DNA of 64,000 nucleotides from Siphonodentalium dalli (lineage: Eukaryota > Mollusca > Scaphopoda > Gadilida > Siphonodentaliidae). Under the pieces are notes generated by a model that worked only from the letters and a program-made list of their open reading frames with translations, had not been told where the DNA came from and searched no databases. The translations under genes and the position numbers were made by a program. This document shows positions 10,067-63,432 of this stretch, in pieces (within the stretch, counting starts at the first letter, position 1; every line of letters starts with the position of its first letter). Location of the stretch: the NCBI GenBank assembly GCA_032622095.1, contig CP136068.1:132749989-132813988 (forward strand), given 5' to 3'.

Positions 10067-10466
10067 TTAACCCTTTACCCAACAGAACGGCCCTGTGCCA
10101 ATGCATTCTCTTATATATGCGAGTCGACCATAGGTCGCCTCGCATATATAAGAGAATGCATTGGCTTAACACATTAAAAATTATAACATTGTTAAAGAAT
10201 GTAAGAAAAAATGGTAAAAAGTGTTAAAAAAAGATTTTTTTTAGGCCAATGCATTCTCTTATATATGCGAGGCGACCTGTGGTCGATTCGCATATATAAG
10301 AAAATGCATTGGCACAGGGCATAACTGTAACTATCACAATGTGGTCAAGGAGTCGGTTCCAATGATATCCATATTTGTATGGTTCTATTGAGACAGACCG
10401 AAGATATTTTAGGCTGTTGAAGCTTTATTTGGCCGATTTTGGCCGGTTTGTTGGGTAAAGGGTTAA
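10067..10466 (-). mobile_element. TTAA-flanked tandem-hairpin MITE, copy 1 (piggyBac-like)
   Basis: The ends are TTAACCCTTTACCCAACA and TTGGGTAAAGGGTTAA, i.e. a CCCTTT-type TIR bordered by TTAA on both sides, the hallmark of piggyBac-type insertion. Inside are two ~70-bp hairpins with the stem GCCAATGCATTCTCTTATAT and a GTCGACCATAGGTC-like loop, separated by an A/T-rich spacer. One flank between TIR and hairpin is short and the other is ~150 bp (ACTGTAACTATCACAATGTG and onward). Here the long flank lies on the right, so the copy is inverted relative to most others. Confidence 0.85.
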
Positions 10467-14393: not shown

Positions 14394-15263
14394 GTGCCAT
14401 ATTCCGGGTGTCCAATAATGTACAAATCTACTCTGCTAACAATCGAACGGTCATTCCGTGTATGTGTGAAACATATGCAATCTCTTCCAACCAGGACACC
14501 AACGACTGTGGCGCTTAGTCTCCTGGGATTGCTTCCAGTCGAGATGGAAATTCATCTGCGGAAACTGTACTTTCTTGAAAAACTCATACACATACCGGTG
14601 GGCCACCAGACTCCGTTGAGGATATTTCTTTTCAAGGCACATCAATATCGGCTATTTGGTGGCTCCATGTCAGGATTTGTTAAAGACATTTTCACCTTAT
14701 TAGAGGAATATCATCTTTTAACATTCCTCACTGTCTTCATGGACACAGGATTATTCCCATCGAAAAACGAATGGAAGAGACTGGTTTGCGAGACAGTCGA
14801 AACAAACTATTACTCTTCGTGGTATCGTTCGACTGCGCTCAATGCCGAGCTCTCACTATTCATGCGCTGCCATTCCCATCCCAATCAAACATGGAAAATT
14901 TGGAATCTGTGCAAATCCCACCGATCATTCTCGAAGCCACTGAGACACGTAGCAAAGCTGCTCAACAAATCAACTTACGAAAATAATCTGACGTGCAGTT
15001 TGTGCGACACGGATTACAACCACGAGTTATTCCATGTGTTTTGGTCTTGCAGGTCGGCCACAGTGATACATTTAGTTGATCAGCACTGGGAAATGATACT
15101 AAATAAACACGGGATCGATGTGTATCTGTTCCTCACATCTCTCGCACCAACAGATCTTATGTCAGTTTTCCTCGGAGGTCACATGCCGTCGCTCTCCGAA
15201 CATATCTACGATGTTTTAGACTTGGTGATCATAGACGCAAGTGTATTCTTGCTATATATGTAA
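14394..15263 (+). pseudogene. LINE ORF2 C-terminal remnant, 289-codon open frame
   Basis: A long open frame without a proper ATG (it opens after an upstream stop) encodes FRVCVKHMQSLPTRTPTTVA, LSLLGLLPVEMEIHLRKLYF, LFPSKNEWKR and a C-terminal knuckle CSLCDTDYNHELFHVFWSC. This is the pattern of the region after the reverse transcriptase in a common molluscan non-LTR family (R.CVK.IQ.LP.RTRT, EIDLRKL.FL.L, FPSK..WK). The catalytic domain upstream is missing, consistent with 5' truncation. The surviving frame is uninterrupted for 290 codons, so the insertion is probably fairly young. An AATAAA at 15466 and an ATATAT tail near 15485 fit the element's 3' end. The scrap at 24380-24556 may belong to the same family. 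Confidence 0.75.
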
Positions 15264-26628: not shown

Positions 26629-27005
26629 TTAACCCTTTACCCAACAAACCGGCCAAAACCGGCCAAATAAAGCTTCAACAGCCTAAAATATCTTCGGTCT
26701 GTCTCAATAGAACCATACAAATATGGATATCATTGGAACCGGCTCCTTGACCACATTGTGATAGTTACAGTTATGCCCTGTGCCAATGCATTCTCTTATA
26801 TATGCGAGTCGACCATAGGTCGCCTCGCATATATAAGAGAATGCATTGGCCTAAAAAAAATCTTTTTTTAACACTTTTTAACATTTTATAATTTTTAATG
26901 TGTTAAGCCAATGCATTCTCTTATATATGCGAGGCGACCTATGGTCGACTCGCATATATAAGAAAATGCATTGGCACAGGGCCGTTCTGTTGGGTAAAGG
27001 GTTAA
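26629..27005 (+). mobile_element. TTAA-flanked tandem-hairpin MITE, copy 2
   Basis: Starts TTAACCCTTTACCCAACAAA and ends TTGGGTAAAGGGTTAA, with the long flank on the left (AATAAAGCTTCAACAGCC, TTGACCACATTGTGATAG) and two GCCAATGCATTCTC hairpins at about 26784-26850 and 26908-26974. Confidence 0.88.
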
Positions 27006-39437: not shown

Positions 39438-39932
39438 ATGACGGAGTCTGCGCCAACTGATTCGGACTATTCTCGAGATGGTGGTAACTCCATCGCTCCT
39501 AGTGATGCCAGTTCTCTAGGGATAGTTCCTTTCGGTTTCCACTCAAAAACTTCATACGACGCCGATGGTGCTTTACGTCATTTCCGGAGTGAATGCTTCA
39601 AGCGGATGGCAAAGCAACATGACAGCGACATCTGGCGGCGGCCACCGCCCGATATGAGATATGTGTCATTCGAGCCTTCCCCTCCCAAGAGAAACGCGTC
39701 AGATTCAATGAGACCTTGGGAGTACGGAACGATACCAGGGCAACGCATAGTCGTCAAGCGTCCCAATGAAACTGTGGTGCCGCACGCCCTAAAACCGAGG
39801 ATAGACGAACCTACACGATTCGATACGCTCTTCCGGTTCAAACGACCGTTTACGGCGAAGAAGGAATTCGTTCGCGAGGGAATGAATAAAACCCAACAGT
39901 ATCGTAATCCAAAGCCTCACGACTTCCGGGAT
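39438..39932 (+). CDS. Exon 1 (coding part) of the four-exon gene
   Basis: 165 codons from ATG to GAT, followed by GTAAGT. The Kozak-like CCACCATGA and the low-repeat, higher-GC composition stand out against the surrounding AT-rich DNA. The open frame runs into the intron for ten more codons only. Confidence 0.85.
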
Positions 39933-42900
39933 GTAAGTATTCAACCCAATTCTAAGTACATCTGATTTATATATGTATTAACCCTTTACCCAACAAAACG
40001 GCCAAAACCGGCCAAATAAAGCTTCAACAGCCTAAAATATCTTCGGTCTGTCTCAATAGAACCATACAAATATGGATATCATTGGAACCGGCTCCTTGAC
40101 CACATTGTGATAGTTACAGTTATGCCCTGTGCCAATGCATTCTCTTATATATGCGAGTCGACCATAGGTCGCCTCGCATATATAAGAGAATGCATTGGCC
40201 TTTTTTTAACACTTTTTACCAATTTTTCTTACATTCTTTAACAATTTTATAATTTTTAATGTGTTAAGCCAATGCATTCTCTTATATATGCGAGGCGACC
40301 TATGGTCGACTCGCATATATAAGAGAATGCATTGGCACAGGGCCCTTCTGTTGGGTAAAGGGTTAATGGGTTGGAGTATTGGATATTCTTTCAGCGTTCT
40401 AGATCTTCAGTTGTAAAACACACATGTTTATAGATAAAATCGTATGCATCTTAATAATATCTTCGTCCCAAATGGAAACATGTAATAAACAACCAACATG
40501 CATGCTTATGTGTATATACCAGAAAAGTCATATTTTTCAGCAAAGTTAATTCTGTAATTATGAATGTCCCGCCAGATCATCGAAACCATTTAAATAAATG
40601 GGAACACAATATAACAGCATAATAATTTTAGGGTGATAAAACGCTAGTAAAGCAAGACGATGATTGCATCACTGAAATAAACTACATGTAAGAGATACAG
40701 TCTGTCCGAACTGACAATATGTATTTGATCACATATATAAAATATATGCCATATTATATACCATTTGAAATAGGAAGCTCTCTAAAATTGTATTGTCAAC
40801 TTATCCGGTATAATAAACCGGTAAAATAAACATGTTGTTTTTGTTGAGTTACCAACGTGTTTTTGTGCTGAAGTTTCATCTGGTTTTGTTGCGCAAAGTG
40901 TATTATTTTCAATGGAGGGGGAATAACTATATATTTTAAGGATAGTTATTCCCCCTTCCATTGAAAATCCGGAACATGTCTCTATTCCGAAGGTTCGCTA
41001 TTCCGAAGGTTCACTATTCCGAAGGTTCTCTATTCCGAATGTTCGCTATTTTTCCGAAGGTTCACTATTCCGAAGGTTCGCTATTCCGAAGGTTTTGTTA
41101 TTTTAAAGGTTAATTCTATATTCTAAAGTATTGAGAGGGTCCGTTATCACGAAGACTCTTTTTATGAAGGAAATAACTTAAAACATTAAAACAATAAATG
41201 TGATTTGTTTGGTTTTCGCGGGTTTCCTTGATATTGAATGTCATTATGTATGACGTTATTTTTCAATACGTATTCACGTCACGCAGCCCACACAATTGCT
41301 ATGTTTCCATACGATTTAATGCCATCACGTATTATGTTATATCTCAATAATCTTAGAGGTATGAATACGCCAGATAAAGGCGGTTTATAACAGTGGGGCT
41401 ATAACGCGTAATGCATACTGGAGCGCCATAACATACTGCGTAGCTGTATCGCTGAATAGACGGGTATGAGTTGAACCTAACTGCAATTGTGAATTGGTAT
41501 TGACTTTAAAGGCCCACTTAATTTTCGTGTCACCGATTATTTTTTATAGTGCCTTTATATATGGTTTAATAACAATCTGTGCCATAAAATATGATTAAAG
41601 TACTATAATTCATCACCATGTGAAACGTCTGTGTCTCAGAAGATGCCCATATAGAAATAGAATACAGATGAACTCATAAAAAGATTCCCCCGTACCCGTA
41701 ATGGCTCCCAGAATGCAACATAATTCAAACTAAAATGTATTTTCAATGGAATAACTCAATCTTTAATATATAGAGTTATTCCCCCTCCATTGAAAATAAT
41801 ATACTTTGCGCAACAAAACCAGATGAAACTTAAGCACAAAACACGTCGGTAACTCAGCAAAAACAACATGTTCAAAGTTTATTACACCGGATAAGTTGAT
41901 AATACAATGTTAGAGAGCTTCATATTTCAAATGGTATATAATATGGCATATATTTTATATATGTGATCTGGGGTTCGAAAATTAAGTGGGCCTTTAATTT
42001 TGATGTTTCTTTCAAATACAGATTGCCAGTTCGGACAGACTGCATCTCTTACCTGTAGTTTATTTCAGTCATACAGTCATCGTGTTTTCAACTGTCCATA
42101 ATAAACGATAAACTGATACTGTCTTCTTGCTATTAATAACCGACACCTGGGACAATCTGGCAATTAGAACGGGGTGTATAAATGTACTCTATATGTGAAT
42201 ACTAGCGTAAAATAGTATTTTTCATTCCTCGTGTGTTTTCTTGTGGAGGTGCAAAATTTTTATTCATTTCTGGTTAAATACGCCCAGAGTAGAAAACCTT
42301 CGGAATAGCGAACCTTCGGAATAACGAACCTTCGGAATAATGAACCTTCGGAATAGGGAACCTTCGGAACAATAAACCTTCGGAATAGCAAATCTTCGGA
42401 ATAATGAACCTTCGGAATAGAGAACCCTACCCGAAAATCCATTTTAGTTTGAAGTCTATTGCATTCTGGAAGCCATAACGGGGGAATCTTTTTATGATTT
42501 CAGCTGTTTTCTATTTCTCTATGGGCATCTTCTGAGACACAAACGTTTAAAATGGTGATGAATTATAGTATTTATTTTAATCCTAATGTATGGCATAAGT
42601 TGTTAAAAAAAACGTATATCAAGGCACTATAAAAAAAAATCGGTGACTCGAAAATTAAGTGGGCATTTAAAATCAATACAAAGTCACAACTGCAGTTAGG
42701 TTCATCTCATATCCGTCTATTCAGCGATGTTCTTCTACGCAGTTATAGCCTCCAGTATTCATTAACCCTTTACTCAACAAAACGGCAAAAAACGCCCAAA
42801 TAAAGCTTCAACAGCCTAAAATATCTTCCGTCTGTCTCAATAACACCATACAAATATGGATATCACTGGAACCGGTTAATTGACCACAGTGTGATGGTTA

Positions 42901-45900
42901 CAGTTATGCCCTGTGCCAATGCATTCTCTTATATATGCGAATCGACCATAGGTCGCCTCGCATATATAAGAGAATGCATTGGCCTAAAAAAAACTTTCTT
43001 ACATTTTTTATAATATTTTTCTACATTCTTTGACAATTTTATCATTTTTAATATGTGTTAAGCCAATGCATTCTCTTACAGATGCGAGGCGACCTATGGT
43101 CGACTCACATATATAAGAGAATGCATTGGCACAGGGCCGTTCTGTCGGGTAAAGGGTTAAGCGTTATAGTCCCAATGTGATAATCCGCTTTTAGCTGGCG
43201 TATATTCTTGCCTCTAAGATTATTGAGATATTACGTCATACGTAATGACATTAAATCGTATGGAAACATAGCAATTGTGTAGGCTGTGTGACGTGAATAT
43301 GTCTTGAGAAATAACGTCATACGTAATGACATTAAATCTCAAGAAAATCCGCGAAAGCAAAATTCCTTCATAAAAAGAGTATTCGTGAAAATGAACCCTC
43401 TCCATACTTTAGAATATATAATTAACCTAAAATAACAAAAACATTCGGAATAGCGAACCTTCGGAATAGAGAACCTTCGCAATAGTGAACATTCGGAATA
43501 GCGAACCTTCGGAATAGAGACATGTCCCCCGTAATTTCCTCTTCAATGGGAAGGATTTATTTGATAATTTGAGCACATTCATTGTCTTGAATGTCTCAAT
43601 TTGATTAATTTAACATTGGAAGAGCACGAATTAAGACAATTCCAATCTGTAAATATTCATTTATATTTATTTCTTGCAGCTTCCATCCATCGAGAAACTC
43701 GGATTGTCGGAGTTCAAATCAAATACAGATCCAGATCCGTTCAAAATTAAATTTTCTTCAGAAAGACTCAATTGTGGTGAGTTGATATCCAATGTGATGT
43801 GTACGACAGAGAATATGCGCCTCTTCAAGTTCACTTTCAAGTGCGTTTCGACACCAAATTCTTTTTATCATTTTATCAATGACCTAATGACCTTTTTCTC
43901 TTCAGAAATGTCTCGTTTGCGAGTTATTTCCAAATTATTTCACAGATCGTTAATTTGTTTTTATTTTCCGTTATCAGTATTTGTTTGTTTCCTGCAACAC
44001 ACCACCATACATTTAGAAATTTCGATATATTTATTCGTTAATCACAAATTAGTTTGAGACTTTTGATTGGAAAGTAACTATCCAGATAATATTGCTGCAT
44101 CGTGATGCCATTAAATGTTAGCTGCATTTTCTATTGTCTATTATTTTCTGACGCCACCTGTCTATGTTCAGACAGCTGACAAAATGGTTGTACGGTATGT
44201 GTTTTGGTTGTATAGCATACTAGAACTAGATGTACTAAATGCAAGGAGTGATTGCATGATTGATTCTCGCCAGATATTTGGAGGCTAATTTCGGGCAAAT
44301 TTCAGATGATGAACAAAATACAAATTAATAGCTCGTCGTTAAGATCGTAGCATGCAACACACTGTACCCCTCCGCGGCCACTTTCAGATAACTGTCTGGT
44401 AACTTTACCCATGTGACTAGATTGAAACATACACATCAGCCCAATCCCCACGAAGTATGTATTATTACCCAGCATTATAACATGGTTGGTCTATTAAAAC
44501 ATGAATAATTTTAACGGCAAAGTCCAACATCTTCATTCTCATCAACCCAATCACCACAACGTACGTATTACTGTCCAACACTGTAACATGGTTGGTATAA
44601 TAAAACATAATCAATATTAACCCTTTACCCAACAGAACGGCCATGTGCCAATGCATTCTCTTATATATGCGAGTCGACCATAGGTCGCCTCGCATATATA
44701 AGAAAATGCATTGGCTTAACATATATTAAAAATGATAAAATTGTCAAAGAATGTAGAAAAATATTATAAAAATTGTTAAAAAATGTAAGAAAAAATTATA
44801 AAATTGTTAAAGAATGTACGAAAAAATGGTAAAAAGTGTTTAAAAATGATTTTTTTAGGCCAATGCATTCTCTTATATATGCGAGGCGACCTATGGTCGA
44901 CTCGCATATATAAGAGAATGCATTGGCACATGGTATAACTGTAACCATCACAATGTGGTCAATGAACCGGTTCCAATGATATCCAAATTTGTATGGTGTT
45001 ATTGAGACAGACAGAAGATATTTTAGGCTGTTGAAGCTTTATTTTGGGCGTTTTTGGTCGTTTTGTTGGGTAAAGGGTTAACAGCAAAGCTAACAAACTA
45101 ACCCTCACCAATTACTGTTGAACTTTGTTGTTAAAATTAATTGAGCTTCAATAGGCCAACCATGCCTATATGCAGGTTCCAGAACAAATGTGAAAAGAAG
45201 CCCTGCTTGGTGACTACTACACCCACGATCATTTGTGCATTTTCTCTGATAACGCGGCTTGTATACATGGTATGGGTAGATATCGGGGTCTTGCCTGTAC
45301 TGCATGCGCAATTGATATGGGAGTTAAATATTGATAGAATCGTTCAGCAGTTTGCAGTTGATTGGCTCTCTAAACACAGACACAGATATTGGATTTGTCG
45401 TGTCTTGTTGACACACAGTTTCACTGGCACCTCCACATAAAGACGAAATCGATCGTAAAGTAGTAATATTAGTTAGAAATGTCACTCGTTATCGACATAA
45501 TTCGCACAGTAAATAAACAGGCATGCTATTTATTCACACCACATATCAGATTGCACAGTCATTAATATCACACTGCTTGATAACAGGTTTATACCTATTG
45601 TAATGAGCAGGCCCATGCATGGTACTACGCCAACAATATGGGACATGTTCAATAATTTATTTTCATCATAGAACTGATAAGAAATATAACATACATGTAT
45701 GGTGTTCATATTTAGTGCGACTTGAAGTTGTTTTATATTCCCGGAGATTCCAGCTCACATGCAGTGCAGTATACATAACGTAATATCGTTTATCTTTATA
45801 TAAAATGCTTATTTCTTATCGAACCCCGCGGTCATAAGCGAGCCAGAAAGCCGTGCGCGCAATGAACTGGATTCTCATCTCAGTGAAAAAACTGACAAGG

Positions 45901-48900
45901 GCACAATGTCGTGGCAACTGAAACAATGACACGCATGCAGCCAGTCTCAGTTAACTACATATCCAAATATGTATTACTGAGTCTGATTACCTTATGTATA
46001 CTTTCTATTTCCCGTACCACGGGAGTCAGAGCCATTAGCGCCAACCATAACTCACTAGTAATAGCTCCAAGATTAAAGCGCCAAATCGAAACGGTTAACT
46101 TAACACAGTGTGGTGTAAGTTGGTGGAAGCCTGTAAATGCGTCCGAGAAATGATATATCGACGATATTACGACATATTTAGTAAGACTTTTGAGTGTATG
46201 TTTACACAGACTGAACGGATGCGTGTTCCCAACGGTGAATCAGACACCAAAAATTATCAAGAGATTGTTTGGCAGATTGGTCAAGTTATCTTTTAGACAA
46301 CACAACAGTTATTATAGCTGAAGGGTTCACTCTCACCAAAAAAAGTGCTGTAGGGTACACAGGGTTTGTGATAGGCACGAACACCATTACTTAAATTGTG
46401 TTTATGAAAGTCTGGCGCCCATTAGCAGTTTGTTTTCAGTACATTTTAATATTCATTGGAACGTAAACAATTATTCTCTAACAGAAATCATGGCAGATAC
46501 GAAAATTTAATGCCTTTAGAACGACATTTCAAACCCTGTGTACCCTTCAGCACATTTTGAAAATCCTGTGTACCCTTCAGCACTTTTTTTGGTGAGAGTG
46601 ACCCCTTCAGCGTTATTATATCTAAGTCGAACAGAGGCGTAAACAAAATCACCGCACGATCATTTTCAAACTTGACATGTGTTTTCTCTCCTCCAATCCC
46701 GTTACCGATTTAATTTGGTAAAACTAAATATGTTTAACCAATCTAAACGATGATAAATACAAGCAACCGACTATAGCCTGGATCGGAAGCGCTTGTCAAG
46801 CAACTGAACATGTATATGTGTGTTCGTCCGGTCGAAACGACTGTTGACCGGATGATAACTTGAATACTATTCGACAGAATTTGATGAAACTTGGTCAGTG
46901 GCATTCATATGAGGACGTCCCGATCAAGTTCGAAATTAGATCCGGTCAGACTATTTTTGGGGTAGTTATGTCTCCTTTCTACTTACGATTTGCCGACTGT
47001 TGCGTTGTCCAGATGGCAACTTAAGTTATCAATATCCAATAGCTTTGAAATTAAGTGAGTTGGTTAATCACATAATAGTACAGGTCCAGTTCGAATATCG
47101 GTTCGGTCCGACCATTTGGACGGCGTTATGCCTCTTTTTTTTACTAAAGAATTGTCTATTATTTTGTTGTCCGGATGTTAACTTGAATATTTATTCGACA
47201 TAATTTGATGAACTATTTGATAAACGTCTTCCAGTATCCGCATCATTCAGTTGGTCAAACATGATTGGGTGCGCAGTGTTTATGATTATCCGATAGCTTT
47301 AAAAGTTAGGAAGTGGATTAACATACAGGTCAATATAAAATTGTGGCCTTCATATGAGAAGTGTCGATTAATTCGAATTTCGATAAGACTATTTCTGGCG
47401 GAGATACATGTATGCCCTTTTCGACTTAGAAATTTCCGATTATGTTGTTGTCCGGACATTAACTTGAATATTATTCGACATAATTTGGTAAACCTTTGGA
47501 CATGTAAGTGGCCTTAAAATGAGAAAGTCTCCATCAAGTTCGAATTTGGATCCGACTATTTCTGGCGGAGTTATTCCCCTTTTCTACTTAGAATTAGCTG
47601 ATTAGTTCTTGTTGCCCGGGTGATATCTCAAATTATGATTATCCGATAGCTTTCAAAGTTAGGAAGTTGATTAACATGCAGGTCAATATAAAGTTGGCTT
47701 CGTTCAGACAAATTCTGACTGAGTTATTCCCCCTTTTTTGTATCTATTGAAATATATTAAAAAAATAGACAGTGTTTGGAAGCAATATTTGATTCAATTA
47801 CAAGTAAGCCACCTTATTCGTGGGACGTATGGCCTATCTGACTTTTATTGTGCATACCAATTACGTTTGAATATGGCAATCAGAAATGCGTCACCGATTA
47901 CATTCTTATACTGGGTGGATGCATGGAAATGAATATAAGCTTTTTCAAAATGGCGGTGATACGAGTTCTGACCACAGGAAATGTTTTCCGCTCGATTTCG
48001 CGATAATAAGACCTTTTAGTGTTCAAAACCTATATGTAATTCACGTGTTGATATAACTCTCGCTTGCTGAGAACTTTGTTAACCTCAAATTGACTCAAAT
48101 TACTGGCTCACGCCATCTGGTTTTTACCATACATAGAAGACACGTGCACCAATGTCGTAAAAGCATTGTTGTTCGACAGCAGAGTATATATGCACGTGAA
48201 CGCATAATCAAATTAATGTAATCGAGGGTACTCTGGGTTTGTAAAAACGATTACCAGTCGGTTGTCAGTGTTCCAGGGCAATGCAATCTAAACTAATATC
48301 CATAACACTACCATATGGATTCAACGTCGCAAATCATCATATTTTGTGTGACTTTAATGTATTTTCAATATATAATATAATCCCCTAGACCTTTTAGAGC
48401 CTTTTAACCCTTTACCCAACAAACCGGCCAAAACCGGCCAAATAAAGCTTCAACAGCCTAAAATATCTTCGGTCTGTCTCAATAGAACCATACAAATATG
48501 GATATCATTGGAACCGGCTCATTGACCACATTGTGATTGTTACAGTTATGCCCTGTGCCAATGCATTCTCTTATATATGCGAGTCGACCATAGGTCGCCT
48601 CGCATATATAAGAGAATGCATTGGCCTAAAAAAAATCTTTTTTTAACACTTTTAACATTTTTTCTTACATTCTTTAACAATTTTATAATTTTTAATATGT
48701 TAAGCCAATGCATTCTCTTATATATGCGAGGCGACCTATGGTCGACTCGCATATATAAGAGAATGCATTGGCACATGGCCATTCTGTTGGTTAAAGGGTT
48801 AAATGTCTATTGTGCTATGTTCGCCCCAGGTTGATCGGATTGACTTTCGGACCATGCACCGGGCCTATATTACATGCCTGAACGTATTCTTTATTGTAAA

Positions 48901-51900
48901 TAGAACAACTGTGTCTGTCTTTAACATCATCTTACTGTTTGTGTTCCAATACAAAACAAATATATAACATATGATTTGCATGTCAAGAGACAGTCGGTTT
49001 GCAATTGCGTCACATACATGTAAAACTCTGACTGACCAAACTCAACCACATTGTATAGTGGCATAACTGTTTACAAATCATGAATAGCGACGCGTCACTA
49101 TTATCACTTTATTTTTATGCCTTGAGCTTTAATGATGAATGGGACATGAAGTTATACATGTGACACCTTTATGCACAAATATGACTCTGAATTTCGGTTT
49201 GCAGTGCATGGTTTACCAACGGGTCCTGCTGAAAGGGAATTGATACAAGGCAAACGGCAGATGGCGCCAGCGATGTCATCCAAGAAACATTGGGAACCCA
49301 CCCTGGCTCTCGAGCAAAACAGATATCCCAACAAATTCGCAGGATTCACTGTAAGTTGGCTCTTATGTTATCGTTCACTGTCATTCAGCAGATTGACGCC
49401 TGATGCCACCACCGATTAAGTGGCCTTGCTAATGTTATGTGATGCTGGTGTGCCTTGCCGAACTTCTACATGTATGATGCTAATAAGGCAAAACGATACT
49501 GTTATTTAATTTAAGTTTTCTTTTTCGTTGTGTTGGGCTGATCCGAATAAATCGAGGAAAAGCCACTATATGTATACAAGATTGTCAAATACATTGTATA
49601 TTCACAGGTCCCCTGGTGCGATAATCCCACCATGATTATCCACCTTAATACCTTGTAATGTATGTAGGTGGATACTCATGGGAGGGGGTTGTCGCACCAG
49701 GGGACCTGTGTATTAAGGTGGATACGCATCGGGGGATTAAGGTATTAAGGTGGATACACATGGTGGGGTTGTTGCACCAGGGGACCTGTGTATTAAGGTG
49801 GATACTCATGGTGGGGTTGTCGCATCAGGTGAATACGGTATTAAGGTGTATACACATGGTGGGGTTGTCGCACAAGGTGACTATGGTATTAAGGTGGATA
49901 ATCGTGGTGGGGTTGTCTCACCAGGGGACCAGTGTATTAAGGTGGATTCGCATGGTGGGGTTGTCGCACCAGGGGACTAAGGTATGAAGGTGAATACACA
50001 TGGTGGGGTTGTTGCACCAGGGGACCTGCGTATTGAGGTTGATAATCATGGTGGGGTTGTCGCATCAGGGGAATACGGTATTAAGGTGGATACACATGGT
50101 GGGGTTGTCGCACCAGGGGACTATGGTATTAAGGTGGATATACATGGTGGGGTTGTCGCACCAGGGGACTAAGGTAGTATGGTGGATACTCATGACGGGG
50201 TTGTTGCACCAGGGGACTAAGGTATTAAGGTGGATACTCATGGTGGTGTTGTGGCACCAGGGGTCCTGTGTATTAAGGTGGATACACATGATGGGGTTGT
50301 CGAATCAGGGGACCTGTGTATTAAGGTGGATAATCATGGGAGGGGATTGTCGCACCAGCGGACTACGGTATTAAGGTGGATACACATGGTGGGGTTGTTG
50401 CACCAGGGGACATGCGTATTAAGGTGGATAATCATGGTGGGGTTGTCGCACTAGGGGTCCTGTGTATTAAGGTGGATACACATGATGGGGTTGTCGAATC
50501 AGGGGACCTGTGTATTAAGGTGGATAATCATGGGAGGGGATTGTCGCACCAGCGGACTACGGTATTAAGGTGGATACACATGGTGGGGTTGTTGCACCAG
50601 GGGACATGCGTATTAAGGTGGATAATCATGGTGGGGTTGTCGCACTAGGGGTCCTGTGTATTAAGGTGGATACACATGATGGGGTTGTCGAACCAGGGGA
50701 CCAGTGTATTAAGGTGGATACACATGGTGGGGTTGTTGCACCATGGGACCAGTGTATTAAGGTGGATACACATGATGGGGTTGTCGCACCAGCGGACTAA
50801 GGTATTAAGGTGGATACTCGTGGTGGGGTTGTCGCACCAGGGGACATGTGTGTATATTAATAATATCTGTATTGGTTATTGGAAACAGACCATGGTTGAG
50901 ATGGTTGTTCCTGACGTTTTTCAAACACCAGCTCCACCATTATTAAAATTTCGTAACAACAACGCTTTTCCGTACCAGTATCGTAGCAATTCAGCAGGAT
51001 ACATCGGGATTATAGCAATCCAGCAGGACGCACCAGCATTATAGCAATTCAGCAGGACGCGCTAGCATTATAGCAATCCATCATGATCGCTTAACCAGAA
51101 GTTGATACATGATATGTTGTGGTTCACTTCTCAACTCAATTGAATTCAATTAGTCATATATACAGTTCATGTATACATGTATTAGAAATATTGCATGATC
51201 GCGAAACCATCATAAATATAGGAACACGACCTTTCACAGATTTTGACTATTTCTGAGCTTCGTGTTGTATATACATGTTCATTCGAATTATTTTGTCTCG
51301 TTTTCTTTATGATGTTAGTTGTTATTACATGATCCTACCTTTATTCCATTCACTTAACCTATTCTATAAACTGTGCTATTAAACGTTCGCTTAATATCAT
51401 GATACAGTGTCAGGTGACCTTTGACTTCCGGTTTGTCGTCTGTTTATATTCCGTACGCTACGTATCAAATTACTTATGGCGTCCAATAGTTTTCCAACAA
51501 ACTATAATGAATGAAGAGTTTGAAAAGCTATGTCATTAAATATACGCCATTAAATATGCTAAAGAGTTTTTATTTATCTGGGACTATTTATTTACGCGTG
51601 CAAACAACGCATAGTTACTTGAAATGTCATCGCATGCCTTATATAAGTCGATGTTAGTTTCGCGTCCCATTTGTTGATTTAGGTATGTTTTGTTGAAGTT
51701 TTGGATTATGTAATCAATAGAATCTACAACTTTTCCCCAATTTATAGCGGAATTTACAATACTCGTCCGGTAAATTAGGTCTGGACGTAGGCAAAGGCTC
51801 GGTCTAGACCTAATTTACTGGACTCGTTTGGTAAATTCCGCTATAAACTGGTGACGATCGCGAGTTGTAGGTCCTCTATATGTTATGATTTAACTTCGTT

Positions 51901-52179
51901 ATGAATAATGCAAACTGAAGCTCGTAAATTTCAACGGAAGCAAAATATATATGACAGCATGCAAGTGCGCGAAAATATCAGTTGAGTGCATACATAGGGT
52001 GAATTTTGGTTTGAAGCTAATAGTTGCCACCAGTATAACTAATCATATTGTTCCTTCTGCAGAGGTTCCGGCTACGGAACAGAAATCCTTACAGCGCATT
52101 CATGGAGCGCGCCGAGGTGCATCTAGAGAGGAAGTGGGCGAAGGAAGAGATGCAAAAATCTCTGGAACAATGCTCCTGA
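39438..52179 (+). CDS. Four-exon gene, unrecognised 284-residue protein
   Basis: The coding join is 39438-39932, 43680-43776, 49205-49350 and 52063-52179. Every junction has a GT donor and AG acceptor and the phases fit (0, 1, 0): GAT|GTAAGT to TTGCAG|CTT, TGTG|GTGAGT to GCAG|TGCATGG, and ACT|GTAAGT to TGCAG|AGG. The protein is hydrophilic, with no signal peptide or membrane segment. Order: an acidic/serine-rich start (to ~residue 30), a Pro/Arg-rich central part (WRRPPPD, FEPSPPKR, RPWEYGTIPGQ), a Phe/Lys-rich part (FDTLFRFKRPF), LPSIEKLGLSEF at ~166, VHGLPTGPAE at ~198, and a highly charged, probably helical C-terminus. I do not recognise the family. Such small Pro/Arg/Tyr-containing soluble proteins include many ciliary or sperm microtubule proteins, but that is only an impression. 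The introns (3.7, 5.4 and 2.7 kb) are largely repeats. Confidence 0.85.
39978..40366 (+). mobile_element. TTAA-flanked tandem-hairpin MITE, copy 3 (intron 1)
   Basis: Full-length copy, long flank left, ends TTAACCCTTTACCCAACA / GTTGGGTAAAGGGTTAA, hairpins at about 40131-40198 and 40269-40337. It starts only 45 bases after the exon 1 donor, in sense orientation relative to the gene. Confidence 0.88.
40655..43554. mobile_element. Foldback composite with CTATTCCGAAGGTTCG subrepeats (intron 1)
   Basis: The outer arms, 40955-~41740 and ~42430-43554, are reverse complements: both start at an ACATGTCTCTATTCCGAAGG region, continue with a minisatellite of CTATTCCGAAGGTTCG (40980-41100; 42290-42430 and 43440-43520 in complement), then the TATTCTAAAGTAT, GACGTTATTT and GTTTCCATACGATTTAATG blocks. 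A second inverted pair, X, at 40655-40950 and ~41740-42085 (CAACAAAACCAGATGAAACT; GTTCGGACAGACTGCATCTC) overlaps them, and a TTAA MITE interrupts the right arm. Long inverted arms with internal tandem subrepeats are the plan of foldback transposons. No transposase is seen. Confidence 0.8.
42762..43160 (+). mobile_element. TTAA-flanked tandem-hairpin MITE, copy 4 (inside foldback arm)
   Basis: Ends TTAACCCTTTACTCAACA and TCGGGTAAAGGGTTAA, slightly diverged. It is absent from the opposite foldback arm, so it inserted after that arm pair formed. Confidence 0.87.
43680..43776 (+). CDS. Exon 2 of the four-exon gene
   Basis: Preceded by a T-rich tract ending TTCTTGCAG and followed by GTGAGT. 32 codons plus one base (LPSIEKLGLSEFKSN to SSERLNC). 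The split codon G|TG gives valine with exon 3. Confidence 0.82.
43777..44616. other. Intron 2, first part: nothing recognised
   Basis: Intronic. GTACGTATTACTGTCCAACA near 44561 resembles GAAGTATGTATTATTACCCAGC near 44451 with a shared TATAACATGGTTGGT context, a small local duplication. Confidence 0.45.
44617..45081 (-). mobile_element. TTAA-flanked tandem-hairpin MITE, copy 5 (intron 2)
   Basis: Long flank on the right, i.e. antisense relative to the host gene. The spacer between hairpins is expanded by duplicated ATGTA.GAAAAA.TTATAAAATTG units. Confidence 0.87.
45797..45805 (+). promoter_or_regulatory. TATA box upstream of the nested secreted-peptide exon
   Basis: TATATAAAA about 130 bases before the ATG at 45926. 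A start near 45828 would give a leader of ~95 bases. An eight-codon uORF (45906-45929) overlaps the main ATG as ATGA. Confidence 0.45.
45926..46114 (+). CDS. Candidate first exon of a secreted pro-peptide gene (nested in intron 2)
   Basis: The ATG opens a 63-codon stretch: a basic N-terminus, a hydrophobic core (YVLLSLITLCILSIS) ending near VRA at residue 36, a 12-residue pro-segment, then RLKR (residues 49-52), a furin-type cleavage site, and QIETVNLTQCG with an N-glycosylation sequon. A strong GTAAGT donor follows at 46115 in phase 0. This plan suits a processed hormone, antimicrobial peptide or other secreted protein; I cannot tell which. It is on the same strand as the host gene and not in its frame. 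No downstream exon is recognised. The first ~190 bases after the donor are followed by a MITE. If read through, the frame ends 16 codons later. Confidence 0.4.
46317..46611. mobile_element. Mutator-type MITE with 9-bp target duplication (intron 2)
   Basis: TIRs GCTGAAGGGTTCACTCTCAC and GTGAGAGTGACCCCTTCAGC, flanked by GTTATTATA on both sides (46308-46316, 46612-46620). Subterminal GGGTACACAGGGTTT and AAACCCTGTGTACCC are inverted, the latter duplicated. The core includes the ~95-bp segment also found at 22850. Confidence 0.85.
46800..47710 (+). repeat. Degenerate ~160-bp satellite (intron 2)
   Basis: TTGTCCGGATGTTAACTTGA, TATTCGACATAATTTG and TATCCGATAGCTTT recur near 46845, 47004, 47168, 47448 and 47607, mostly ~160 bases apart. 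Short frames here are by-products. Confidence 0.75.
47711..48403. other. Intron 2: nothing recognised
   Basis: No repeat ends or exon-like signals that I could defend. Confidence 0.4.
48404..48802 (+). mobile_element. TTAA-flanked tandem-hairpin MITE, copy 6 (intron 2)
   Basis: Ends TTAACCCTTTACCCAACA and TTGGTTAAAGGGTTAA (one mismatch). Hairpins at about 48556-48625 and 48704-48772. It lies ~400 bases before exon 3. Confidence 0.87.
49205..49350 (+). CDS. Exon 3 of the four-exon gene
   Basis: Acceptor TTTCGGTTTGCAG, donor GTAAGT. After completing the valine codon it encodes HGLPTGPAERELIQG, then HWEPTLALEQNRYPNKFAGF, ending with threonine in phase 0. Confidence 0.85.
49605..50850 (+). repeat. 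48-bp minisatellite, ~25 units, inverted first unit (intron 3)
   Basis: The unit is GTATTAAGGTGGATACACAT plus GGTGGGGTTGTCGCACCAGG plus about eight variable bases. The first unit (49605-49655) is in the opposite orientation. Within 50243-50640 a ~194-bp higher-order block of four units is duplicated almost exactly. Because 48 is divisible by three, frames with a 16-residue repeat (GVVAPGDxCIKVDTHG) run for up to 124 codons, but they are broken repeatedly and exist in several frames, so I do not call a protein. Confidence 0.92.
50983..51080 (+). repeat. ~30-bp tandem repeat, three units (intron 3)
   Basis: TAGCAATCCAGCAGGACGCA followed by CCAGCATTA, three to four times with small changes. Confidence 0.8.
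51724..51871. repeat. Palindrome (intron 3)
   Basis: CTACAACT, TTTATAGCGGAATTTAC and GGTAAATTAGGTCTGGAC on the left return in complement on the right, ending GAGTTGTAG. The loop is about 20 bases near 51795. It sits ~190 bases upstream of exon 4's acceptor. Confidence 0.85.
52063..52179 (+). CDS. Exon 4 (terminal coding exon)
   Basis: Acceptor TTGTTCCTTCTGCAG. 38 codons, RFRLRNRNPYSAFMERAEVH onward, ending KSLEQCS and TGA at 52177. A decayed duplicate of this exon lies 126 bases downstream. No AATAAA is visible before the MITE at 52402, so the mRNA end is unknown. Confidence 0.85.
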   Translation, partial: RFRLRNRNPYSAFMERAEVHLERKWAKEEMQKSLEQCS

Positions 52180-52219
52180 TTGTCCACGCCTTCAATCGAA
52201 CACGCCGTAAACCAGTAAC

Positions 52220-52318
52220 GCGCATTCATTGAGCGCAGCGAGATGCATCTATAGATAAAGTTGGCACAGCATCCCGGAAGAAATGCTGAAATCTCTGGAA
52301 CAATACTCACGATTGTCC
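52220..52318 (+). pseudogene. Decayed duplicate of exon 4
   Basis: GCGCATTCATTGAGCGCAGC, GAGATGCATCTATAGA, AATCTCTGGAACAATACTCA and GATTGTCCAC follow the exon 4 sequence (from GCGCATTCATGGAGCGCGCC) 126 bases downstream. In the equivalent frame it reads AFIERSEMHL then a TAG, and there are indels. It may be transcribed in the 3' UTR but cannot encode the C-terminus. Confidence 0.75.
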
Positions 52319-52401
52319 ACACTATCACACTGTATACATAGGGAGTGGGTGCGGCACAGCCCACATGAACCACCAATTGCTGGTCACCCGTGAACTTAAA
52401 C

Positions 52402-60305: not shown

Positions 60306-60942
60306 TATAATCAGGAACCAAAGCCCTGTAAAATAACGGCACTTACAACCGTCAAATATATGAACGTTAGTCATTTCACGGACCATTTGATCCGTAAAAT
60401 GACGAACCAGATCCATGTAAATATACAGTGATTTAGTTGTATAAAGTCAAACCAGAGTCCTTATTTTTAATGAACTATGAGCTGACAGATATTGTTTCGT
60501 GAATTAGATAGAATAGGGATAACCCAAAATCATATTTGACATAAATGGTTCAAACTCAGTGTCGCCCTGATTCGGTATCATATGTCTGTTTTTGTTTGGC
60601 GAAATAATGTGCTTCGATCCAACTAACATTAAATTAGTCGAAATATTGTTATGAAGGAGCGATAGAGTCCATACTTGCGGGCATCATTGAATAAAAAAGC
60701 TGGCGCAAAAGGTTGCAAAACCGGTTATTTCTGGAAGACGTTCATTCGCTGCAATATTGTTAAGAGTGTAATTGGTGCATTGGTGTGCGCGATTATACAA
60801 AGTGTTCACACAGGGGAATAACGAATTTGGCACTGTCAAATTCAACCACATGTATAATGGTTAAATAAAACATTATTTTAATTCAGTATGTGCTTGACCG
60901 AGACAGAAATAGATAACACTATAACTGTTGCGTTGTGGGCAA

Positions 60943-61187
60943 TGGATATTGTATGGATATTGTATGGATATTGTATGGATATTGTATGGATATTGTATGG
61001 ATATTGTATGGATATTGTATGGATATTGTATGGATATTGTATGGATATTGTATGGATATTGTATGGATATTGTATGGATATTGTATGGTATTGTATGGAT
61101 ATTGTATGGATATTGTATGGATATTGTATGGATATTGTATGGATATTGTATGGATATTGTATGGATAATGTATGGATATTGTATGGA
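60943..61187. repeat. 11-bp minisatellite, ~22 units
   Basis: TGGATATTGTA repeated almost perfectly, with one 10-base unit and one A variant. As 11 is not a multiple of three and the unit lacks stops, several frames on both strands stay open and look like repetitive proteins (YGYCMDIVWIL and others). They are artefacts. Confidence 0.97.
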
Positions 61188-61301: not shown

Positions 61302-61679
61302 TTAACCCTTTACCCAACAAACCGGCCAAAAACGGCCAAATAAAGCTGCAACAGCCTAAATTATCTTGGGTCTGTCTCAATAAAACCATACAAATATGGA
61401 TATCATTAGAACCGGCTCATTGACCACATTGTGATGGTTACAGTTATGCCCTGTGCCAATGCATTCTCTTATATATGCGAGTCGACCATAGGTCGCCTCG
61501 CATATATAAGAGAATGCATTGACACTTTTTACCATTTTTTCTTACATTCTTTAACAATTTTATAATTTTTAATGTGTTAAGCCAATGCATTCTCTTATAT
61601 ATGCGAGGCGACCTATGGTCGACTCGCATATATAAGAGGATGCATTGGCACATGGCCGTTCTGTTGGGTAAAGGGTTAA
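61302..61679 (+). mobile_element. TTAA-flanked tandem-hairpin MITE, copy 7
   Basis: Ends TTAACCCTTTACCCAACA and TTGGGTAAAGGGTTAA, long flank left. Its right TTAA is shared with a degraded family B element that follows. Confidence 0.87.
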
Positions 61680-62699: not shown

Positions 62700-63432
62700 T
62701 TAGATACCTAGCCACACTGACTAGCTCACTAGCCATGTGCGACTTAAATATCAGTTGTGATTAGATCACTAGCCAATTGTGACTCTCCTGGCAGTAGCTC
62801 AATAGCTATGCGAGACTTACCTAGCTCACTAACCTTGTGAGGTGACTATAAGTACTGACTAATTCACTAGTCATGCGTAACTTGCCCAGCAGTAGTGACT
62901 AGCTCGATCATTAGCCATTCGTGACCTCGCATCATTAGCTAGCTCACTGGCCTTGCATGGTGACTTACATAAGAGCAGTGATTAGCTCACTAGCCATGCG
63001 TGACTCACATAGCCATATTGACTAGCTTACTAGCCATGTGACCATATGTGACCTACCCAACAGTTCTGTTTAGCTCACTAGCCATGCGTGACTTACCTAG
63101 TCGTATTGACTAGCTCACTGGCCATGCGTGACTTACCTATCAGTTCTGGTTAGCTCACTAGACATTCGTGACTTAACTAGTCATATGGACTAGCTCACTG
63201 GCCATTTGTGACCTACCTATCAGTTCTGGTTAGCTCACTAGCCATGCGTGACTTACCTAGTCATATTGACTAGCTCACTGGCCATGCGTGACTTACCTGG
63301 CAGTAGTGATAACTCACTGGCCATGCGTGACTTACCTGGCAGTACTGACTAGCTCACTGACCATGCGTGACTTACCTGGCAGTACTGACTAGCTCACTGG
63401 CCATGCGTGACTTACCTGGCAGTACTGACTAG
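62700..63432 (+). repeat. 40-bp minisatellite (GACTAGCTCACTGGCCATGC)
   Basis: Units of ~40 bases, TGACTAGCTCACTGGCCATG plus CGTGACTTACCTGGCAGTAC. They are degenerate at the left and nearly identical in the last 130 bases, as if expansion is recent at the right edge. Confidence 0.9.

Follow-up and report, generated by a model that had tools for sequence, protein, structure and literature searches.

The systems nearest to the locus described here are the small microtubule inner proteins (MIPs) of cilia and sperm, for its product, and the piggyBac-type MITEs, for part of its introns. According to passages of PMC10973386, relatives have not been assigned to the great majority of MIPs, for which disorder and coiled coils are the probable reason, and the MIP modules NWE, SNYG, PYG, and GFG are named there; lineage-specific MIPs are mentioned in the abstract of PMC10460401.

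We analysed a window of 64 kb (G000:C8:132749989-132813988) of the Siphonodentalium dalli assembly, which comprises 2,226,750,531 bases (2.23 Gb) in 9 contigs. In this window, a preliminary description had placed a complete four-exon gene of unrecognised family. On the sequence evidence, it is likely that the locus is a real, single-copy nuclear animal gene that is read on the + strand from a start codon at 39438 and has no recognised domain.

Structure of the candidate gene

The segments of the gene and of its immediate surroundings, in window positions, are the following:

39438-39932, + strand: exon 1, initiator ATG, 165 codons, donor GTAAGT, phase 0 out
43680-43776, + strand: exon 2, 97 nt, phase 0 in and phase 1 out, recovered without prior exon information
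49205-49350, + strand: possible exon 3, 146 nt, phase 1 in and phase 0 out
52063-52179, + strand: exon 4, terminal, in the frame first described, stop TGA at 52177-52179, acceptor recovered without prior exon information
52063-52232, + strand: alternative terminal exon, read in the other frame when exon 3 is skipped, giving a 253-aa product
52209-52327, + strand: tandem duplicate covering most of exon 4, degenerate, 75% identical, frame broken, just after the stop

Scripted joining of the four exons gave 855 nt, that is 284 residues and a stop, with no frame defect over the 284 codons, and all three introns run from GT to AG with phases 0, 1, and 0 across the junctions. The coordinates, intron ends, phases, and 284-aa product of the preliminary description were thus reproduced exactly, and the locus has the start, open frame, GT-AG introns, matching phases, and stop of a protein-coding gene. 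The DNA of exon 1 has a single match in the 2.23 Gb genome, and the 284-aa product gave four matches at E up to 10, all of them its own exons (6/6 candidates scored); no paralogue was seen in the genome searches with these two queries.

Coding signal

Codon usage was evaluated with log-odds trained on 12 kinase and HSP70 reading frames of the same genome, a small set of 6,057 codons to which pseudocounts were added. Three of the 15 training loci had been dropped, namely two HSP70s resembling another one and one locus in which the longest frame was not the kinase. In the frame first described, the scores of exons 1 to 4, in bits per codon, were +0.12, +0.16, +0.13, and +0.11; by their own table, the 12 training frames ranged from 0.09 to 0.23, and the dropped locus scored −0.03. 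This frame is the best of all six in exons 1, 2, and 3; in exon 4, it is beaten by frame 2, with +0.30 vs 0.11 bits per codon. A coding bias like that of known genes of the same genome was thus found for exons 1 and 2, and the frame of exon 4 is ambiguous. The gap in exon 4 comprises 4.3 bits from amino-acid composition and 2.7 bits from synonymous codon choice (2.6 bits in frame 2 vs −0.1 in the frame first described), the latter being a weak signal that amounts to 1.8 bits over exon 1.

In length, exon 1 ranks third among the 18 stop-to-stop frames of at least 120 aa in the window. Exons 2 to 4 jointly scored above 1500/1500 random length-matched stop-free triplets, in a comparison that is uncorrected for the choice of these segments in the preliminary description.

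Blind gene-model search

We searched the window, extended by 70 kb at either end (204 kb in total), for exon chains on both strands, blind to the exons listed above. Splice sites were scored with generic matrices and had to reach 3 bits each, a minimum that was later found to be too strict for exon 3. On the + strand, the top model was a low-complexity valine-rich stretch (94712-105204, score 64.1), and the second, with a score of 26.8, consisted of exons 1 and 2 followed by the acceptor at 52063, with exon 4 in the other frame to 52232. The top model on the − strand (16.7) fell among pieces with weak aldo-keto reductase matches. The next best model in the window reached 8.9 (− strand) vs 26.8, which agrees with the proposal that the locus is the sole clearly structured gene in the 64 kb.

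The search was rerun on the + strand only, with a splice threshold of 0 and varied per-exon penalties. At penalties of 9-13, the three-exon model was again second on the strand. Penalties of 6 and 8 chained the whole + strand into a single model with dozens of exons, exon 3 being skipped, and were set aside as over-permissive. Exon 3 was absent from every best model of both the strict and the relaxed searches.

There is good support for a gene with its start at 39438, to whose coding sequence exons 1 and 2 and the part that follows the acceptor at 52063 would belong. The exact four-exon structure first described is one of two readings with near-equal scores.

As a separate observation, the top segment of the codon model is a valine-rich open frame of 1.4 kb outside the window (103771-105159), which is probably a simple-repeat artefact.

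Exon 3 and the frame of the terminal exon

All junctions had been said to carry consensus splice sites. GT and AG are present at every one of them, but the sites of exon 3 are weak, with 1.0 bits for the acceptor and 2.4 bits for the donor (T at −1) on the generic matrices. We compared them with the sites of 40 exon regions from the same genome (26 tektin and 14 HSP70-type, including some near-identical pairs), taking the top-scoring site close to each exon end. The acceptor falls at the 19th percentile (n = 36 acceptors) and the donor at the 40th (n = 35 donors), percentiles that are flattered because several of the lowest reference sites look misplaced.

Among the 24 phase-compatible internal exons in 43777-52062, exon 3 ranks first, and on the + strand it is open in the required frame only. 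Candidates equalling it were found in 8/40 control windows for total score and in 4/40 for coding score; for exon 2, this occurred in 2/36. The control windows were taken from the flanks and from positions 1-39000 of the window, with the strands counted separately, and some of their candidates are possibly real exons or simple repeats.

With exon scores of 9.8, 9.4, and 11.4, the four-exon chain outscores the three-exon one only at an exon penalty below 7.8, and since this penalty is arbitrary, the two chains are not separated by it. Overall, the scoring leans to three exons. We put the odds that exon 3 is used at about even, because the exon is missing from the best chains and because synonymous codon choice in exon 4 points to the other frame. 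The degenerate copy of exon 4 was also tried as an arbiter of the frame, but its differences, which number 6, 6, and 8 by codon position, carry no signal.

Repeat content of the introns

Repeat cover was obtained from a self-comparison of the 204 kb at E 1e-10, which misses the 75% identical copy of exon 4. It amounts to 79%, 33%, and 67% of introns 1, 2, and 3, respectively, and to zero in exons 1-4; if only matches beyond the gene are counted, the cover falls to 22%, 18%, and 21%. The introns had been described as dominated by mobile DNA, which is fair for intron 1 at most, given outside-gene matches of 18-22% and an intron 3 that is mainly tandem minisatellite. The repeats found were:

39978-40366, + strand: piggyBac-like MITE in intron 1, TTAA-flanked, both ends exact
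40974-43528, no strand assigned: fold-back repeat region in intron 1, 16-bp minisatellite arrays in inverted orientation
42756-43161, + strand: second MITE copy in intron 1, without the exact end motif
44617-45081, + strand: MITE in intron 2, exact at both ends
46842-47696, no strand assigned: dispersed repeat in intron 2
48404-48808, + strand: another MITE in intron 2, exact at one end
49742-50851, no strand assigned: 48-bp minisatellite in intron 3, 23 copies

The MITE is about 390-465 bp long and has the inverted ends TTAA-CCCTTTACCCAAC. In a genome search with the copy at 48404-48808, where the best 40 of 1,430 candidates were scored, these 40 were the query and 39 near-full-length copies, 97-99% identical. 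Within the 204 kb, exact CCCTTTACCCAAC ends follow TTAA in 24/24 cases, where base composition would predict 0.003, and they belong to nine elements with both ends and six single ends. The elements combine a TTAA target site with CCC-type inverted ends, which we take to mark a piggyBac-type MITE. The intron inserts would thus belong to an abundant piggyBac-like family, and the identity of the copies suggests that it is young. For the dispersed repeat of intron 2, the main genome matches are 72-79% identical over about 250-410 bases (best 40 of 1,620 candidates scored).

Further MITE copies with both ends exact lie elsewhere in the window, at 10067-10466, 26629-27005, and 61302-61679. The window also holds minisatellite arrays at 1024-1693, 60942-61187, and 62851-63432; among these arrays, an 11-bp unit repeated 22.5 times keeps long frames open on both strands. 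Two pieces look LINE-like by eye: 1823-2634 (−), in a region with a weak endonuclease match under the cut-off (E 0.007), and the open piece 14394-15263 (+), with no Pfam match at E 0.1.

Protein product and family search

The 284-aa protein is basic (pI 9.7), hydrophilic (GRAVY −1.0), and proline-rich. Its highest 19-residue mean hydropathy is 0.61 and it has no membrane segment, which makes the earlier reading of a soluble protein a reasonable one. A single-sequence AlphaFold2 prediction of exon 1 alone, which is weak evidence, gave no confident fold (mean pLDDT 53.8, pTM 0.14).

No Pfam family was found over the cut-off for the 284-aa product, its fragments, or the 253-aa alternative, the best E being 0.008 with unrelated families. 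In the PDB, neither the 284-aa product nor the 89-residue stretch formed by exon 2 and the alternative tail, which was the part of the 253-aa form compared, had a match at E ≤1, and at E up to 10 only chance matches appeared, the best at 0.96. The names encountered (pPIWI_RE_Z, BCOR, Involucrin2; HCN1, delta subunit, Mec-8, myosin-2) are all under the cut-off and were discarded as chance matches. NCBIfam, a prokaryotic library, yielded no family for the 284-aa form; in scans of viral and of prokaryotic contigs, a peptide pattern of exon 1 matched 11 and 24 stretches, of which none was confirmed as a relative; the window had no Rfam match at the gathering score. The family can be called unrecognised, as it had been, with respect to Pfam, NCBIfam, and the PDB.

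We also looked for marks of ciliary proteins. No DM10 family was listed in the Pfam scans of the 284-aa product and its fragments. The letters NWE, SNYG, PYG, and GFG are absent from the product, although the published modules are profiles and diverged modules may differ in their letters. RFX-like sites occur in the window at chance level (17, where 15.4 would be expected), and exon 1 contains one of the 17. The PDB copy searched includes 8otz, which we take to be a sperm axonemal doublet, and 8iyj, and no axonemal doublet chain matched the product. 8IYJ is named as a sperm axonemal doublet in a passage of PMC10973386. The genome itself encodes cilium genes: with Pfam profiles, 26/33 tektin matches were over the cut-off, and a PIERCE-type exon was found at 5.4e-12. 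The presence of such genes is no evidence that the candidate gene belongs among them.

Flanking genes and other loci

A fucosyltransferase exon lies about 23.5 kb before the window start (E 1.1e-36). An exon of a ligand-gated channel is located around position 129,500, outside the window (E 1.1e-10). Two pieces located 1.6-9.3 kb after the window end have weak aldo-keto reductase matches under the cut-off (E 0.03 and 0.0006). These flanking genes are no clue to the function of the candidate gene. Two further flanking frames, 119898-120104 (−) and 122115-122378 (+), score well in the codon model but match nothing in Pfam at E 0.1.

Two loci on other parts of the assembly emerged during the analysis. 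In G000:C2:149.83-150.60 Mb, a cluster holds at least 96 of 135 kinase matches (best 134 of 983 candidates scored). Among the matches listed, 95/96 are on the minus strand, many at a spacing of 2-3 kb, and 67 have equal scores. For one kinase of the cluster, an intronless ORF of 269 aa (L013:1495-2304), the closest PDB entry is testis-specific serine kinase 6 (E 1.4e-55). The cluster would represent an amplification of a sperm-type kinase and may merit a study of its own.

The other locus is a nuclear mitochondrial insert (G000:C1:108127492-108128832) with COX1, a tRNA-like stretch, and ND2, in which AGR is read as serine and COX1 is open over 527 codons in the invertebrate mitochondrial code; the serine reading points to an invertebrate. 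ARAGORN, run with bacterial settings, found no tRNA in the insert; by eye, the tRNA-like stretch contains Leu, Gly, and an uncertain third one. This differs from the scaphopod Pictodentalium vernedei, where Ser and Asn lie between cox1 and nad2 according to a passage of PMC9859601.

Discussion

The evidence is best accounted for by one gene, probably an ordinary one of three or four coding exons, whose introns would have grown larger through piggyBac-like MITEs, fold-back repeats, and a minisatellite. Two observations that count in favour of a real gene are that the exons score like the training frames and that they have no repeat cover at E 1e-10 inside repetitive introns. The second one also speaks against the opposite view, that of a decayed or non-coding locus in which the open frame of exon 1 is a relic or due to chance, and exons 2 to 4 are a selection from many candidates. 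Such a view could appeal to the two window frames that are longer than exon 1, to the decayed tandem copy beside exon 4, to the control windows that match exon 3 (8/40) and exon 2 (2/36), and to the fact that neither a homologue nor a transcript was seen. It would have to explain, however, why the locus gives the top model in 204 kb that is not a simple repeat, why 284 codons have no frame defect, and why exons 2-4 beat all the random triplets, the last point being uncorrected for the initial choice of segments; we regard it as unlikely. A gene belonging to a known eukaryotic family but diverged beyond the reach of single-sequence searches, such as a small testis or ciliary protein, is compatible with the explanation we prefer. 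The basic, hydrophilic, proline-rich composition would suit it, as would the lack of assigned relatives reported for most MIPs in a passage of PMC10973386, whereas the best PDB E of 0.96 and the best Pfam E of 0.008, under the cut-off and with unrelated families, speak against it, and we hold it for possible rather than probable.

Within a real gene, the question concerns the 3' half. That exon 3 is unused, so that exon 2 is spliced straight to exon 4, whose other frame runs to 52232 and yields a 253-aa product, is a serious contender that we place only slightly below an even chance. This chain is the best one for the locus in the both-strand search and at penalties of 9-13, and exon 3 is skipped at 6 and 8 as well; exon 4 has a codon score of 0.30 vs 0.11 when read in this way, through both synonymous choice and amino-acid composition; and the splice sites of exon 3 are weak. 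On the other side, its margin over the four-exon chain is only 7.8 bits minus an arbitrary exon penalty, the sites of exon 3 are within the reference range, and the + strand of exon 3 is open only in the required frame. Both forms could also coexist: in a lineage-restricted protein family, the 146-nt exon 3 would act as a frame-switching cassette, giving one C-terminus (charged and helix-like by eye) when included and the same terminal exon in its second open frame when left out, so that the terminal exon would encode two different tails. We consider this very unlikely. For gene prediction in large, repeat-rich genomes, the locus is an example of two readings of a 3' half that are inseparable without RNA or relatives.

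Returning to the ordinary gene of three or four exons, its product, if expressed, might be an extended intracellular protein that acts by binding lengthwise to a larger partner. Our first guess for this partner is a microtubule or axoneme, a doubtful one that comes from a likeness to MIPs in size, charge, and composition. The absent MIP letters, the lack of a match to an axonemal PDB chain, and the chance-level count of RFX-like sites speak against it. Once confirmed, the gene would add one more uncharacterised protein, and a gene that stayed readable while its introns gained apparently recent MITE copies.

In the comparison with known systems, no sequence likeness between the product and MIPs (e.g., PIERCE and SPMIP proteins) was detected in the PDB searches, and the likeness is one of size and of basic, hydrophilic composition. 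The intron inserts, assigned by their ends and target site, resemble piggyBac-type MITEs in the TTAA, in the inverted ends, and in size.
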